The notes under the pieces: generated by a model
Seen by the model: only the letters and a program-made list of their open reading frames with translations
What the model was told of the DNA's origin: nothing
Databases searched by the model: none
Source of the DNA: Luteimonas granuli
Lineage (GTDB): Bacteria > Pseudomonadota > Gammaproteobacteria > Xanthomonadales > Xanthomonadaceae
NCBI RefSeq assembly: GCF_007795095.1
Contig: NZ_CP042218.1
Location: forward strand, 2,397,001-2,461,000
DNA: 64,000 bases
Reading direction: 5' to 3'
Part shown: positions 1 through 8,235 of the stretch, in pieces
Layout: each line of letters opens with the position of its first letter
Numbering within the stretch: the first letter of the stretch is position 1
Program-made: the position numbers and the translations under genes

Positions 1-1666
1 ACGGCAGGACGCACTGCGCGCGCTCGACCGCACCAAGGGCATGATGGTTTCGTCGGGCGACCGGGCCGTCAGCCAGATCGCCGAACTCGACGAGGCCATG
101 GACCAGCTCGCCTCGGGCAACTTCGTCCTCGGCGAGTACCACTTCTCGCTGGCGGTCCATGCGCCGGGACAGGAGGCGCTCGCGCGATACGTCGCCGAGG
201 CGCGCGCCGAGCTGTCCAACGCGGGCTTCGTGTCGGCGAAGGAGGACCTGGCGGTGGCTTCTGCGTTCTACGCGCAGCTGCCCGGCAACTGGCGGTATCG
301 CACCCGGCTGGCGAACCTCAGCTCGCTGAACTTCCTCGGCCTGTCGCCGCTGCACAACTTCGCCGCGGGCAAGCGCAGGCGCAATCCCTGGGGCGAATGC
401 GTGACCACGCTGCAGGCGGGCAATGGCCAGCCCTACCACTTCAACTTCCATGCCACACACCCGGCCGAGGATTCTTCGGGGGAGAAGGCGCTCGGCAACA
501 CGCTGGTGATCGGCAAGTCCGGCACCGGCAAGACCGCCCTGGTCAATTTCCTGATCAGCCAGTCGCAGAAGCTGGATCCGGCACCCACCGTGTTCTTCTT
601 CGACAAGGACCGTGGCGCCGAGATCTTCGTGCGTGCCTGCGGCGGAAACTATCTGGCGCTGGAAAATGGTCGACCCACCGGGTTCAATCCACTGCAGTGC
701 GAGCGCACACCGGCCAATGTCCAGTTCCTCGCCGAACTGGTGAAGCTCCTCGCCGGCAAGGAGGTCTGCACCGCGCGCGAGGACGAAGACGTTTTCCGTG
801 CGGTGGAGGGCATCCTCGACACGCCGATGCACCTGCGCAGCATGGCGAACCTTCGCAACAGCCTGCCCAACCTGGGCGACGACGGACTCCATGCCCGCCT
901 GCGCAAGTGGACCGCCGGCAACAGCCTCGGATGGGTCTTCGACAATCCGGAGGATGCCGTCGACCTGTCGCGGGCGAACATCATCGGCTTCGACTACACC
1001 GACCTCCTCGACAACGCCGAAGTCCGGGTGCCGGTGGTGCGCTACCTGCTGCACCGGCTCGAGGGCATCATCGACGGCCGGCGCCTCGTGTACGTGATGG
1101 ACGAGTTCTGGAAGATCCTCGAGGGTGGCGGCGCGCTCAAGGACTTCGCGCGCAACAAGCAGAAGACCATCCGCAAGCAGAACGGACTCGGCATCTTCGC
1201 GACCCAGAGCCCGGAAGATGCGTTGGCGAGCGACATCGCCGCGGCGCTGGTGGAGCAGACCGCGACCCTCGTGCTGCTGCCGAATCCGAACGCCAGCCGC
1301 GGGGACTACGTCGACGGCCTCCGGCTGACCGAGGCCGAGTACCGCGTGGTGGTGTCACTCGACGAGCGATCGCGCTGCTTCCTGGTCAAACAGGGCCATG
1401 CCTCGGCCGTCTGCCGGCTGGACCTGGAGGGGCTGGACGACATGCTGGCGGTGATTTCCGCGTCGACCGACAACATCGGGGTCATGCACCAGGTGATGGC
1501 CGAGCGCGCGGCTGTCCTGGGCGTGGCCCCGGACGCGCTCCGTCCGGAGGACTGGCTCGAGCGGTTCCAGGCCCGCCGGAAGGGGCGGCGGTCGGCCAGG
1601 GGCGCGGCCGGCACGAACGCCCCCGCGGAGGGCGACGGACCAGCGACCGCCCGGGGCGGCGATTGA
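1..1666 (+). CDS. virB4: VirB4-family type IV secretion ATPase (5' end outside window)
   Basis: The reading frame is open from base 2 and enters from outside the window, so the N-terminal part is missing; the Met at 41 is internal. The visible 554 residues are the C-terminal ATPase half of a VirB4/TrbE protein, the cytoplasmic hexameric motor that energises pilus assembly and substrate transfer. Walker A GKSGTGKT lies at 512-535. A Walker B-like LVYVMDEFW lies near 1085-1112, followed by a conserved Gln-rich sensor region (IFATQSPEDAL). The C-terminal 40 residues are Arg/Gly/Ala rich and probably disordered. virB5 and virB6 follow on the same strand, 42 and 790 bases downstream, so this is one transfer operon. 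The sequence does not decide between a conjugative system and a Xanthomonas-type bacteria-killing system. Confidence 0.9.
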   Translation, partial: RQDALRALDRTKGMMVSSGDRAVSQIAELDEAMDQLASGNFVLGEYHFSLAVHAPGQEALARYVAEARAELSNAGFVSAKEDLAVASAFYAQLPGNWRYRTRLANLSSLNFLGLSPLHNFAAGKRRRNPWGECVTTLQAGNGQPYHFNFHATHPAEDSSGEKALGNTLVIGKSGTGKTALVNFLISQSQKLDPAPTVFFFDKDRGAEIFVRACGGNYLALENGRPTGFNPLQCERTPANVQFLAELVKLLAGKEVCTAREDEDVFRAVEGILDTPMHLRSMANLRNSLPNLGDDGLHARLRKWTAGNSLGWVFDNPEDAVDLSRANIIGFDYTDLLDNAEVRVPVVRYLLHRLEGIIDGRRLVYVMDEFWKILEGGGALKDFARNKQKTIRKQNGLGIFATQSPEDALASDIAAALVEQTATLVLLPNPNASRGDYVDGLRLTEAEYRVVVSLDERSRCFLVKQGHASAVCRLDLEGLDDMLAVISASTDNIGVMHQVMAERAAVLGVAPDALRPEDWLERFQARRKGRRSARGAAGTNAPAEGDGPATARGGD

Positions 1667-1708
1667 GGGAAGGACTGCGCGACAGGCATTCGATCCAGGG
1701 AGAGGACC

Positions 1709-2446
1709 ATGGACCACAGGAACATCGGAGGCGCATGGACGCGCCGAGGGCGGATGGCGGGACTGGCACTGGCGCTGTGCGGGGGCGTTGCGGCGGGCCC
1801 GGCGTCCGCGCAATGGGCGGTGGTGGATCTGCCGCACACGATGAAGACCGCCCTGGGCTGGGTTGCCCAGTACCAGCAGATGGCCGAGACCTACCAGCGA
1901 CAGGTGGAGCAGCTCGACACTCTGGACAGGCAGTACGAGCAGGCGCTGGTGACCGGCGAAGCCTATTCCGGCGCCAGCGGGCATCGCGAACGCTTCCAGA
2001 GGCGCGACGAAGACGCCGGCCTGGCCGAACGCTGCGGCACCGGGCCGGCCAGGAATCCCGGGGCCGCGGAGCTGCGCGCGAGCTGCGCCTCGATCGTGCG
2101 CACGGGGAACCGCCGCTTCAATGCGCTGGTGGCGATGCTCGAGAGCGTCGACGCGCGCGACGGGGAGCTGCGCGCGGCCTATGCCGAGCGCGCCGGCATC
2201 CGGCCGGAGGAAGAGGGCAGACTGGCCTCCAACACCAATCGCATCCTGTCCATCCAGGGCCAGCTCCAGAACGACGTGCAGAGCGGCGAACGACTGATGG
2301 CCGCGTACGACGCCACCCTGCGCGCGCTGCGCGAAAACCACGTACGTCTGGCCAACGAGGCCCTGGACGGGTCGCCCGGCGCGGCGATCGCCCGGGGCGT
2401 GGCGCTGAAGGTCGCGCTCGGGGCCGCACGCGAGCGCGAACGGTAG
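1709..2446 (+). CDS. virB5: VirB5/TrbJ-like pilus-tip component
   Basis: A 245-aa protein with an N-terminal signal peptide: a basic start, a hydrophobic stretch MAGLALALCGGVAAG at about residues 16-30, and an Ala-X-Ala cleavage site before QWAVVD. The mature part is helical and rich in Gln, Glu and Arg, with a YQQMAETYQRQVEQL segment typical of the coiled N-terminal helix of VirB5 and TrbJ minor pilins. These sit at the tip of the T-pilus and help contact the recipient. Two pairs of cysteines lie in the middle (CGTG, CASIV). It sits between virB4 and virB6, the position expected for virB5. Sequence conservation in this family is low, so the name relies partly on context. Confidence 0.75.
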   Translation: MDHRNIGGAWTRRGRMAGLALALCGGVAAGPASAQWAVVDLPHTMKTALGWVAQYQQMAETYQRQVEQLDTLDRQYEQALVTGEAYSGASGHRERFQRRDEDAGLAERCGTGPARNPGAAELRASCASIVRTGNRRFNALVAMLESVDARDGELRAAYAERAGIRPEEEGRLASNTNRILSIQGQLQNDVQSGERLMAAYDATLRALRENHVRLANEALDGSPGAAIARGVALKVALGAARERER

Positions 2447-2456
2447 GCGCGGGGTC

Positions 2457-3461
2457 GTGGCGATCGAAGCTGCGGCTGGCCTGGGGGTGGCGATCCTGGA
2501 CCGGGTCCGGGCCCAGTCCCTGCCCGACATGGTGTTCTTCCATGAGATCAACAGCTTCCTGGACGACGAGATCACCGAGTTCGCAGGGAACCTGCTCGGG
2601 CGAGTGGTGACTGTCGCGGGCAGCGCCGCGCTGAGCCTGCTCACCCTGTGGATCCTCGTGCAGGGCTGGCGCATCGCCACGGGGCTCTCGCGCGAGCCGA
2701 TGATGGCCCTGGTGGGCGACGCGCTGAAGGCCGTGCTGGTGATCGGCATCGCCACCGGCGCCGCCGCGGGTTCCGGCTCGACCTACCGCGTCCTGACCGA
2801 CGGTCTCGGCGAGGCAGTGACCGGAGTCGTGACCGGCCGCGACGACGGCGGTCCGTACCGCGACATCGACCGCGCGCTGGCGCTGATGCAGGTGGCGCTG
2901 GAAGTGATCGATTCGATCGACGGCGACGGCGACCTGCTCACCGAACAGCGCAAGGCGCGTGCGATGTGGTTCGCCGGCGCCGGCCTCGGTGGACCGGCCA
3001 TCATCGCCGCGGGCATGCTGCTGCTGAACAGGATCGCGGTCGCACTGATCGTGGGCCTGGGGCCGCTCTTCATCCTCTGCCTGCTGTTCCGGGCCACGCG
3101 CCCGCTGTTCAGCCGGTGGCTGCACTACGGCCTGGGCACACTGTTCTCGCTCGCGGTGCTGACGGTGATGGTGACCCTGGCCATGGACATGGTGATCGCG
3201 GTCGGCATGGCCTTCTGGGTGGCCGACTGGTTGACCGGAGCCCCGCAGGAGAGCCTCTCCTCGATGGCGATGCAGCAGGGAGGGCTGGGCCTGATCCTGA
3301 CCATGCTGGTGGTCAGTGCGCCACCGATGGCGGCGATGTTCTTCAACGGCGTCCTGGGCCAGTTCTCGCCCTACAACGCGGTGGGTGCGGCGACCGGGCG
3401 CGATCATGCGCCGCCGCCCGGCTCCGGACTGCCTCCCGGAACGGTGGGGCGGGACGGCTGA
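2457..3461 (+). CDS. virB6: VirB6/TrbL-like inner-membrane channel protein
   Basis: A 334-aa polytopic membrane protein with about five to six hydrophobic segments (near residues 35-60, 75-95, 165-190, 195-215, 235-260, 275-300). VirB6 forms part of the inner-membrane pore of type IV secretion systems. The start given is GTG, 10 bases after the virB5 stop; an in-frame ATG at 2529, giving [15 protein letters not shown], matches where many VirB6 proteins begin and may be the true start. The C-terminal 30 residues are Pro/Gly rich and probably periplasmic or cytoplasmic tail. It is the last transfer gene; the next gene is thrS under its own promoter, so the cluster ends here. Confidence 0.8.
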
Positions 3462-3513: not shown

Positions 3514-3519
3514 TAGAAT
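3514..3519 (+). promoter_or_regulatory. Predicted -10 of the thrS operon promoter
   Basis: TAGAAT preceded by TTTGGGC lies about 180 bases upstream of thrS and 57 bases upstream of the leader ORF. No good -35 is visible at the usual spacing. The same hexamer recurs before other genes in this window. It would start transcription near 3526 and include the leader peptide and attenuator. Confidence 0.5.
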
Positions 3520-3576
3520 CCGGGCATCCTTCCCGGACCAGGTGGCCCGCGCCAACGCGCCGGCCGAGCGTGCGAC

Positions 3577-3603
3577 ATGGACACTACCTTCACCCATTGC
3601 TGA
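3577..3603 (+). CDS. Threonine-rich leader peptide of the thrS operon
   Basis: A nine-codon ORF encodes MDTTFTHC followed by TGA. Three of eight codons are threonine (ACT, ACC, ACC). It stops 22 bases before a perfect GC-rich terminator and lies directly upstream of threonyl-tRNA synthetase. This is the arrangement of ribosome-mediated transcription attenuation: stalling at Thr codons when charged tRNA-Thr is scarce should favour read-through into thrS. The Shine-Dalgarno site is weak. The role is inferred from composition and position; no folding was computed. Confidence 0.55.
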
Positions 3604-3625
3604 GACCCGCCCGCGGCCGATCCGG

Positions 3626-3650
3626 AAGGCGCCCGCGCGGCGCCTTTTTT
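3626..3650 (+). terminator. Attenuator-type intrinsic terminator before thrS
   Basis: Stem AAGGCGCC (3626-3633) pairs perfectly with GGCGCCTT (3639-3646) around a five-base loop and runs straight into T6 (3645-3650). It lies between the Thr-rich leader ORF and thrS, so it would cut the operon's mRNA unless an alternative fold prevents it. It could also serve to end read-through from the virB genes. Confidence 0.8.
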
Positions 3651-3697: not shown

Positions 3698-5602
3698 ATG
3701 ATCACGATCACGCTCCCCGACGGCAGCCGCCGCGAATTCGAAGCCCCCGTCACCGTCATGCAGGTCGCCGAATCCATCGGCCCCGGCCTGGCCAAGGCCA
3801 CCGTGGCCGGCAAGGTCGATGGCCGCCAGGTCGATGCCTCCGACCTCATCGACCATGACGCCAGCCTGCAGATCCTGACCCCGAAGGACGCGGAGGGCGT
3901 GGAGATCATCCGCCATTCCTGCGCCCACCTCGTCGGCCACGCAGTCAAGCAGCTCTACCCCGACGCCAAGATGGTGATCGGCCCGGTGATCGAGGACGGT
4001 TTCTACTACGACATCTGGCGCGAGCAGCCGTTCACGCCCGACGACATGGCCGCGATCGAGGCCCGCATGCGCGAGCTGATCGACACCGAGTACGACGTCA
4101 TCAAGCGCATGACCCCGCGCGACGAGGTCATCGAGACCTTCAGGGCCCGCGGCGAGGACTACAAGCTGCGCCTGATCGAGGACATGGGGCCGGAGGTCAC
4201 GGCCATGGGCCTGTACCACCATCAGGAATACGTGGACATGTGCCGCGGCCCGCACGTGCCCAACACCCGCTTCCTGAAGGCCTTCAAGCTGCTGCGCACC
4301 TCCGGCGCCTACTGGCGCGGCGACGCGAAGAACGAACAGCTGCAGCGCATCTACGGCACGGCGTGGGCGGACTCGAAGCAGCTCAAGGCCTACGTCCAGC
4401 GCATCGAGGAGGCCGAGAAGCGCGACCACCGCCGCATCGGCCGGCAGCAGGAGCTGTTCCACCTGCAGGAAGAAGCGCCGGGCCTGGTGTTCTGGCACCC
4501 CAAGGGCTGGGCGCTGTGGCAGGTGGTGGAGCAGTACATGCGCGGCGTCTACCGCGGCAGCGGCTACGGCGAGGTGCGCTGCCCCCAGATCCTCGACGTG
4601 AGCCTGTGGCAGAAGTCCGGGCACTGGGACAACTACAAGGAGAACATGTTCTTCACCGAGTCCGAGAAGCGGACCTACGCGGTGAAGCCCATGAACTGCC
4701 CGGGCCACGTGCAGGTGTTCAACCAGGGCCTGCACAGCTACCGGGACCTGCCGATCCGTTACGGCGAGTTCGGCAGCTGCCACCGCAACGAGCCCTCCGG
4801 CGCGCTGCACGGCATCCTGCGCGTGCGCGGCTTCACCCAGGACGACGGCCACGTGTTCTGCACCGAGGGCCAGATCGAGTCCGAGGTCACCGCCTTCCAC
4901 GCCCAGGCGATGAAGGTCTACGCCGACTTCGGCTTCGGCGAGGTGCAGGTCAAGCTGGCGCTGCGCCCGGAGTCGCGCCTGGGCGACGACGCCACCTGGG
5001 ACAAGGCCGAGGCGGCGTTGCGCAGTGCGCTGTCCGCAGCCGGCGTGGAATGGCAGGAGCTGCCCGGCGAAGGTGCCTTCTACGGTCCGAAGATCGAGTA
5101 CCACCTGCGGGACGCCATCGGCCGCACCTGGCAGCTGGGCACGATGCAGGTCGACTTCATGATGCCGGGCCGACTGGGCGCTGAATACGTCGACGAGCAC
5201 AGCCAGAAGCGCACACCGGTGATGTTGCACCGCGCGATCGTGGGTTCCATGGAGCGCTTCATCGGCATCCTGATCGAGCACCACGCCGGCGCCTTCCCGG
5301 CCTGGCTGGCCCCGGTCCAGGCGGTGGTGATGAACATCACCGACGCCCAGGCGGACTGGGTCGCCGCTGTAGGAAAAACCCTTGTGGATCAAGGGTTCAG
5401 GGTCGAAACCGATTTGCGGAACGAGAAGATCGGCTATAAGATCCGCGAGCACACGCTGCAGCGCGTGCCGTACCTGCTCGTGGTGGGGGACCGCGAGAAG
5501 GAACAGGCTACGGTCGCCGTCCGCACGCGTGGGGGAGAGGATCTGGGTTCGATGCCGCTGGCCGATTTCACGGCGCGGATGCACTCGGAACGGGGTCCCT
5601 GA
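3698..5602 (+). CDS. thrS: Threonyl-tRNA synthetase
   Basis: A 634-aa class II synthetase that charges tRNA-Thr. Domain order is full: a TGS domain (about 1-62), the editing domain with the H-x3-H motif in HSCAH (about 73-77), the catalytic core, and the anticodon-binding domain (from about 535). Zinc ligands are visible as the Cys of MNCPGH (about residue 334) and the His residues of later motifs; motif 2 is [12 protein letters not shown]. The start ATG is the first in frame after the leader terminator and matches the family length. It heads the operon thrS-infC-rpmI-rplT-pheS-pheT-ihfA and is probably controlled by the upstream Thr attenuator. Confidence 0.98.
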
Positions 5603-5694
5603 GTATCATGTAGCCCGGTGCCTGCCATGCGGCAGGCGCCGTGGGTCCCGGGGAACGGGACCCGCCAGGAAGTGCCACCCACGGAGATCGCAAT

Positions 5695-6216
5695 ATCAGT
5701 ACCCCGGACAAGCAGAACCGCAGGAACCTCGAAATCCGCGTGCCGCGCGTGCGCGTGATCGGCTCGGACGGCGAAATGGTCGGCGTGCTTTCGCGCGACG
5801 AAGCCCTCGCCATGGCCCAGGAGGAAGGACTGGATCTCGTCGAGATCCAGCCAAACGCCGATCCGCCGGTCTGCAAGATCATGGACTTCGGCAAGTTCCG
5901 CTTCGAGGCGCAGAAGCGCGCGAACGAGGCCAAGAAGAAGTCCAAGCAGGTCGAGATCAAGGAAGTCAAGTTCCGTCCGGTGACCGACGAGGGCGACTAC
6001 CAGATCAAGCTGCGCAAGATGCGCGAGTTCCTCGAGGACGGGGACAAGATCAAGGTCAATATCCGCTTCCGCGGCCGCGAGATGAGCCACCAGGAGCTCG
6101 GCCGCGGCATGGCCGCGCGCATCGAGGCCGACCTCGGCGAGGACATCGTGATCGAGTCCCGGCCGCGACTGGAAGGCCGCCAGATGGTCATGATGATCGC
6201 ACCCAGGAAGAAGTGA
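5695..6216 (+). CDS. infC: Translation initiation factor IF-3 (ATC start)
   Basis: A 173-aa IF-3, which binds the 30S subunit and checks start-codon pairing. The N-domain (about 1-75), linker rich in Lys ([13 protein letters not shown]) and C-domain are complete. Homologues begin at the residues [10 protein letters not shown]. No ATG, GTG or TTG lies there, but an ATC at 5695 does, eight bases after GGAG (5683-5686). IF-3 genes characteristically use a rare AUU-type start that IF-3 itself discriminates against, giving autoregulation, so ATC is the likely start. A GTG far upstream at 5641 would add an odd Gly/Pro-rich extension and is rejected. Confidence 0.92.

Positions 6217-6698: not shown

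Positions 6699-8235
<1,537 letters not shown>

Follow-up and report, generated by a model that had tools for sequence, protein, structure and literature searches.

A threonine leader peptide and a covarying antiterminator ahead of thrS suggest ribosome-mediated attenuation in Luteimonas granuli and other Xanthomonadales

Introduction

The enterobacterial thr, his, leu and trp attenuators share a common plan, in which a short open reading frame (ORF) carrying the regulatory codons is followed by an antiterminator and a terminator that exclude each other. T-box leaders, by comparison, read tRNA directly and without a leader peptide. The threonyl-tRNA synthetase (ThrRS) gene, thrS, is the textbook example of autogenous translational repression by a synthetase through tRNA mimicry.

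In E. coli, ThrRS binds tRNA-like hairpins of the thrS operator and thereby controls translation, as excerpts of PMC9976931 describe. A terminator in the thrS leader of Bacillus is mentioned in an excerpt of PMC3997798. For Streptomyces lividans, excerpts of PMC8079986 describe a thrL-thrS arrangement in which a leader ORF with two Thr precedes thrS; thrL is leaderless and encodes 18 residues, and the same excerpts report no clear terminator. The thr leader of E. coli contains eight ACC codons, according to an excerpt of PMC1183508.

The thrS locus of Luteimonas granuli

The window, by which we mean the whole 64-kb stretch of L. granuli contig NZ_CP042218.1 that was analysed, was predicted earlier, from its sequence, to carry a Thr leader peptide and attenuator in front of thrS. 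The elements of the locus, in window coordinates, are as follows.

3514..3519, + strand: TAGAAT, a possible -10 element picked out by eye; transcription would then start near 3526
3540..3544, + strand: AGGTG, the probable Shine-Dalgarno sequence of the leader ORF, judged from aligned relatives
3544..3565, + strand: P2, a hairpin between the Shine-Dalgarno sequence and the start codon (3544-3552 with 3557-3565, one mismatch)
3570..3576, + strand: GTGCGAC, the near-invariant 7 nt before the leader ATG
3577..3603, + strand: leader ORF ATGGACACTACCTTCACCCATTGCTGA (MDTTFTHC), with ACT, ACC and ACC as Thr codons 3, 4 and 6
3608..3616, + strand: 5' strand of the antiterminator, just past the leader stop codon, from fold and covariation
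3628..3650, + strand: predicted intrinsic terminator, GGCGCC-cgcgc-GGCGCC and T6
3633..3642, + strand: 3' strand of the antiterminator (terminator loop and part of the 3' arm; bulge at 3638)
3698..5602, + strand: thrS, threonyl-tRNA synthetase (ATG start; 634 aa; Pfam tRNA-synt_2b, HGTP_anticodon, tRNA_SAD and TGS)
5695..6216, + strand: infC (IF-3), the gene after thrS (Pfam IF3_N and IF3_C; start codon probably ATC, from sequence)

No fixed promoter or -10 position stood out across the family sequences, so TAGAAT is put forward as a candidate. The leader ORF reads ATG GAC ACT ACC TTC ACC CAT TGC TGA, with Thr at three of its eight sense codons; these codons, the GC stem and the T6 tract can be read directly from the window, as the original prediction had it. 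The stem GGCGCC/GGCGCC occupies 3628-3633 and 3639-3644, an AA/TT extension lengthens it to 3626-3646, and the T tract spans 3645-3650. The distance from the stop codon had been given as 22 bases to the GC stem; this value holds for the AA/TT-extended stem, and the GC stem itself lies 24 bases away.

The genes 3' of thrS are, in order, infC, rpmI, rplT, pheS, pheT, an HU/IHF-type gene and a MerR-type gene, assigned by Pfam except for rpmI, which was called by reading the sequence. This agrees with the predicted placement of the element directly ahead of thrS and the infC-rpmI-rplT-pheST genes. infC apparently starts at 5695 with the rare codon ATC, and two GC hairpins found by eye (window 5603-5697) separate it from thrS. 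Ahead of pheS, in window 7088-7179, stand a long inverted repeat seen by eye, consisting of GGAGCCGCTATAGCGGCGAT and its complement, and a second strong hairpin. On the other side of thrS, window 41-3461 holds type IV secretion genes (by Pfam a VirB4-like gene, one unassigned gene and VirB6/TrbL), which stop about 50 bp before the possible promoter of the thrS leader. Two relatives, L002 and L003, carry a different gene of 234 aa in the upstream position, which suggests that a mobile element may have landed or been rearranged upstream of thrS.

The leader ORF is conserved in the family

A sample of 148 genomes of the family, including that of the window, was assembled from 30 loci and 118 further stretches upstream of thrS; it comprises the best matches listed from 198 genomes searched and leans towards ThrRS most like that of the window. 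One row (G178), in which the match began at residue 76, was left out, and four rows that begin at residue 2 were taken in. Leader ORFs were located through a motif of the GTGYGACATG kind, looser than GTGCGAC, and the invariance of the motif is partly built in because it served to find the ORFs.

Among these listed matches, an equivalent ORF is present in 144 of the 148 genomes, the other four having no match to the motif. Thr occupies codon 3 in 142 of the 144 leaders and codon 4 in 133, residues 2, 5 and 6 are variable, and the stop codon is TGA in 137. At least one Thr occurs in 143 leaders (two or more in 132, one in 11); the single leader without any is MSPPIAHR. The peptide has eight residues in 126 genomes, seven in 13, six in four and 16 in one. 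Thus, conservation of a Thr-rich leader upstream of thrS, on which the original prediction had hinged, is borne out.

The four genomes without the motif are L002, L222, L225 and L228. The first (genome G003) has lost the leader ORF and the 5' hairpin and kept a terminator-like hairpin, with a ThrRS 91% identical; its upstream gene is of the same kind as in L003, where the leader is intact, and its gap is about 70 nt shorter. Loss of the ORF or its Thr codons with retention of the hairpin, a pattern that would speak against attenuation, is absent generally and occurs in this one genome. L222 has AGGTGACGACATG and the peptide MGTTTYHL, without P2, and at L225 and L228 a different 5' hairpin accompanies the leader MTRNGIHR. 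The latter two belong to a second leader class (L038, L048, L059, L225, L228 and L305-L308), in which a short hairpin of the GUUC-GAAC-GAAC kind is followed by ACGATCACNATGACGCG; peptides of this class begin with MTR, and their Thr count goes down to one in L225 and L228. As a separate observation, the ThrRS identities to the window's, among the matches listed, fall into two groups (about 82-91% and 73-76%), and both are represented under one genus label (g4), a pattern suggestive of gene replacement or transfer.

Two features go beyond the original prediction: the hairpin between the ribosome-binding site and the leader start, and a near-fixed ACU codon. Codon 3 is ACT (ACU in the RNA) in 141 of the 144 leaders. 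Elsewhere this codon is rare: of the Thr codons, it makes up 8 of 719 across thirty thrS genes and 2 of 86 across four operon genes of the window. Excerpts of PMC1183508 set out a theory in which codon choice and the selective charging of isoacceptors determine the sensitivity of attenuation, and this theory may provide a lead for interpreting the near-fixed ACU.

Covariation between the terminator loop and the post-stop strand

A script detected a terminator 3' of the ORF in 128 of the 144 family elements, including that of the window; 119 of the 128 have no stem mismatch and at least five T in nine positions, and the remainder are weaker. In these 128 elements, changes in the strand that follows the stop codon are matched by changes in the terminator loop. 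The summed best-helix score was 1739.8, as compared with 1557.9 (sd 25.7) when the strands were dealt among genomes, and the real score was reached in none of 2000 permutations. The permutations ignore descent. With thinned sets, the counts were 0 of 5000 for 44 sequences (one per distinct loop) and 3 of 5000 for 14 sequences with strands less than 55% alike. The compensating series includes CGAGG/CCUCG, CAAGG/CCUUG, CGAAG/CUUCG, CCAGG/CCUGG and CCAGAGG/CUUCUGG, with CGCGG/CCGCG in the window; outside the CCUCG group, the best helices of many elements are short. An initial duplex test was weak (mean z -0.73) because many genomes share one loop, and the permutation test took its place.

Spacing offers a further line of evidence. 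In the 90 of 128 elements where the chosen patterns recognised the strand, it lies 33.9 nt (sd 2.2) from the ATG and 7.4 nt (sd 2.6) from the stop codon. The distance from the ATG is 34.0 nt for ORFs of 21 nt (4 genomes), 32.9 nt for those of 24 nt (8) and 33.9 nt for those of 27 nt (78). The mean of 33.9 nt agrees with a mechanism in which the position of the ribosome would decide the outcome. Because this distance is unchanged in the four genomes with 6-codon leaders, a ribosome at the stop codon is not expected to cover the strand there.

We then computed the probability of the terminator fold for a ribosome whose leading edge, by general knowledge, extends some 15 nt beyond the P site. On average, this probability is 0.21 when the ribosome sits on Thr codon 4 and 0.79 when it is at the stop codon. 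The state without a ribosome is mixed, with a mean of 0.39, and no protector helix that would favour termination in the absence of translation was noticed. For the window, the corresponding values are 0.03 on the Thr codons, 0.99 at the stop codon and 0.015 without a ribosome, the last of which corresponds to read-through. The mean size of the switch is 0.58, against 0.09 with shuffled post-stop strands. Of 127 real elements, 80 switch by more than 0.5, as do 16% of the shuffled controls; in 21 elements, the probability of the terminator at the stop codon is below 0.5. Thus, the antiterminator, which the original prediction had left to be looked for, is backed by both covariation and a position-dependent fold.

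The folding energy of the window RNA is ordinary by comparison with shuffles (z -0.02; in the two states of the switch, z 0.10 and 0.26). The stalled form (47 nt, -19.9 kcal/mol) contains a nine-pair antiterminator and the stop form (30 nt, -13.0 kcal/mol) contains the terminator, neither being better than shuffles. A general terminator scan of the window did not list the leader hairpin, perhaps because the scan carries the stem on into the T tract. The case for a putative attenuator draws its strength from comparison.

Proposed mechanism

We consider the element to be, with a probability of roughly 0.87, a ribosome-mediated transcription attenuator through which the level of Thr tRNA charging would set thrS expression. 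In the proposed sequence of events, a ribosome would start on the leader ORF and, if charged Thr tRNA is scarce, stall at codons 3-4 (ACU ACC). The stall would leave 3608-3616 free to pair with 3633-3642, the terminator would fail to form, and RNA polymerase would continue into thrS. With good charging, the ribosome would reach the UGA and cover the strand at 3608-3616, the terminator would form, and transcription would stop at 3645-3650. The most likely consequence is that more enzyme would be made when charged Thr tRNA is short.

The computed support comprises the conserved ORF and Thr codons, the terminator, the covarying antiterminator, the covarying P2 and a fold that switches with ribosome position. 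Comparison among genomes thus lends good support to the attenuation mechanism proposed originally. That the leader is translated, that ribosomes stall on it and that transcription terminates there in the cell are inferences, as are the part played by P2 and any effect beyond thrS.

A conserved hairpin probably splits the leader's ribosome-binding site

In 72 aligned sequences, changes on both sides of P2 were found at all seven pairs tested, and 93.6% of cells are paired, with 0 of 500 shuffles reaching this level. The Shine-Dalgarno position holds GGTG in 66 of the 72 sequences and GGAG or GGAA in three. At five loci that lack P2 (L222, L176, L181, L042 and L310), AGGTG stands 4-5 nt before the ATG, from which we conclude that P2 probably splits the ribosome-binding site of the leader. 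A covarying hairpin in this place, between AGGUG and AUG, had not been expected, and GUGCGAC is nearly invariant beside the leader AUG. Tests gave no support to smaller helices, whether between AGGU and the Thr codons or around the AUG (GUGC/GCAC). A longer ORF beginning at the GTG of AGGTGG was rejected as a general start, the GTG being out of frame in 44 of 116 elements; it is in frame with the leader in the other 72, all of which are stop-free.

These features bear on what the attenuator senses. It is conceivable, if rather unlikely, that there are two inputs: P2 would regulate initiation at the leader through a protein (perhaps one encoded by the operon itself, such as IF-3, L20 or ThrRS), codons 3-4 would report charging during the first steps of elongation, read-through would be the default, and termination would need a ribosome that has both started and finished. 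We consider it improbable that the attenuator chiefly senses leader initiation, with P2 as the sensor for a protein or initiation factor. Such a role would fit the strong conservation of P2 and GUGCGAC, which are kept even where the terminator is lost, and the read-through form that the window RNA adopts without a ribosome. Against it speak the conservation of the Thr codons, which the P2-less variants L222, L042 and L310 retain, and the Thr-rich leaders of other sequence that precede thrS in other lineages.

Elements without a recognised terminator

Sixteen of the 144 elements keep the ORF and the 5' part without a terminator accepted by the script, and some of them resemble a named Xanthomonas locus (L035). 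In these elements, the ORF may act without a terminator, or termination may be of another kind. A rival reading is that the leader peptide acts by a route other than intrinsic termination, for example through exposure or hiding of a Rho site, mRNA stability or thrS translation. We regard this as very unlikely, given that the other 128 elements do have a terminator with whose loop the antiterminator covaries, and that the leader stop codon is at least 64 nt from the thrS start, long for direct reinitiation. Reinitiation at thrS, a hypothesis found in an excerpt of PMC4833913, was set aside on account of this distance.

Distribution in Xanthomonadales and beyond

A model of the 5' part was compared with larger sets of genomes. 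In the genome of the window, thrS is the one place with a match better than E 0.5, two others having values of 0.54 and 0.93. Of 369 genomes of the class, 5 gave a match, and each of these belongs to the order Xanthomonadales; within the order, 149 of 299 genomes matched, 148 with a single hit.

The model also yielded 40 further elements, of which 36 belong to other families of the order and 4 to that of the window; these were examined in the same way. The script read an ORF in 39 of them (35 and 4, respectively), and none of these ORFs has fewer than two Thr. In the remaining element, L270, the motif is shifted by one base, and inspection by eye gives the peptide MSTTSAA. A terminator follows in 37 of the 39 and is absent from two. 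The covariation test on these 37 gave 1 of 5000 permutations. The N-terminus of ThrRS follows 36 of the 39 elements by script and two more by eye. Among 16 genomes of other families of the order, 15 have readable upstream DNA, and 11 of the 15 have a Thr ORF and a terminator, with leaders such as MKTTTKN and MASTLTTVD.

We also inspected 61 other thrS loci, which remained from a set of 80 after 17 with the motif and two that were too short had been removed. By the patterns used, a Thr leader ORF with a terminator is present at 12 loci and an operator-like hairpin at 16; the two never occur together, and neither is seen at the other 33. The Thr leaders include Vogesella MFKRTTTTRISR and Ralstonia MIQAPRTTTASERQ. 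At L069, L072, L081, L086, L088, L098 and L108, which carry Betaproteobacteria labels or genus names, thrS is preceded by its own Thr-rich leader and terminator; these leaders are unlike that of the window by eye. Elsewhere (L046, L049, L050, L066, L082, L104, L110 and others), a conserved hairpin of the GTGGCC-NNNGTANGG-GTCACCACTG kind adjoins the thrS start, with CGU or GGU in its loop, like an operator of the anticodon-arm type.

The operator-like pattern, drawn by eye rather than as a full operator model, was found in none of the 148 family genomes (among the matches listed), as against 16 of the 61 other loci, in keeping with the contrast to E. coli drawn in the original prediction. It is highly improbable that ThrRS binds the leader as in E. 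coli through an operator that mimics the Thr anticodon arm: the gene is the same and such hairpins do occur at 16 of the 61 loci, but none of the 148 family genomes fits the pattern, which was derived by eye from some of those 61.

Specificity of the arrangement in the window

By the criteria of one script, the 64 kb contain one terminator-like site on the plus strand, that of the leader, and five on the minus strand. The leader site is the only one of the six with a Thr ORF (5-15 aa, at least 3 Thr) within 75 nt upstream; an ORF of this kind was found in 35 of 20000 random 75-nt stretches. It is hardly credible that the hairpin simply ends the transcript of the preceding gene or of a small RNA and that the Thr ORF arose by chance. 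Type IV secretion genes do lie right upstream, and shuffled sequence folds as well as the hairpin does, but the ORF, the Thr codons and the antiterminator are conserved across the family, and in L003 a leader of this type follows a different upstream gene.

Comparison with known systems

Attenuation by Thr tRNA charging, the reading we favour, places the thrS leader beside the amino acid operon attenuators, with which it shares a short ORF and an antiterminator exclusive with a terminator. In contrast to these, it would control a tRNA synthetase rather than biosynthesis, and it has eight codons, regulatory codons at positions 3-4 and a hairpin between the Shine-Dalgarno sequence and the AUG. 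The E. coli thr leader uses ACC codons, whereas the thrS leader has ACU-ACC. The Rfam model Thr_leader (RF00506) gave no match to the thrS leader, either at the gathering score or at E up to 10, the T-box model did not match there, and no other Rfam family did so; two weak minus-strand matches, far below the cut-off, were taken as chance.

A survey by Lopatovskaya, Seliverstov and Lyubetsky (2010) reportedly deals, to judge by its title, with attenuation of amino acid and aminoacyl-tRNA operons, and possibly includes a prior prediction of thrS attenuators. A search of the open-licence PubMed Central literature, supplements aside and partly in excerpt, found no description of a thrS leader in Xanthomonadales. 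The thrS leader may thus be a new form of ribosome-mediated attenuation, with which the 2010 survey may overlap.

The switch is small, and because nature offers variants that lack the hairpin at the start site, the terminator or the leader, the contribution of each can be tested. Should transcription continue beyond thrS, as the order of the genes would allow, the supply of IF-3, L35, L20 and PheRS would also track Thr tRNA charging.

Among systems that act on thrS itself, the thrL of S. lividans, as far as the excerpts describe it, shares a Thr leader ORF before the gene, although it belongs to another phylum and its peptide is unlike by eye. The Bacillus thrS T-box shares transcription attenuation that reads Thr tRNA charging, and the leader peptide is found only in the Luteimonas type. 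The E. coli operator, in the excerpts, likewise regulates thrS from the 5' untranslated region; in contrast to it, the locus described here has a leader peptide and a terminator and no match to the operator-like pattern. In Xanthomonadales, and with leaders of other sequence in Betaproteobacteria, a leader peptide and a terminator seem to run thrS instead, which makes this gene a natural comparison of two control logics.
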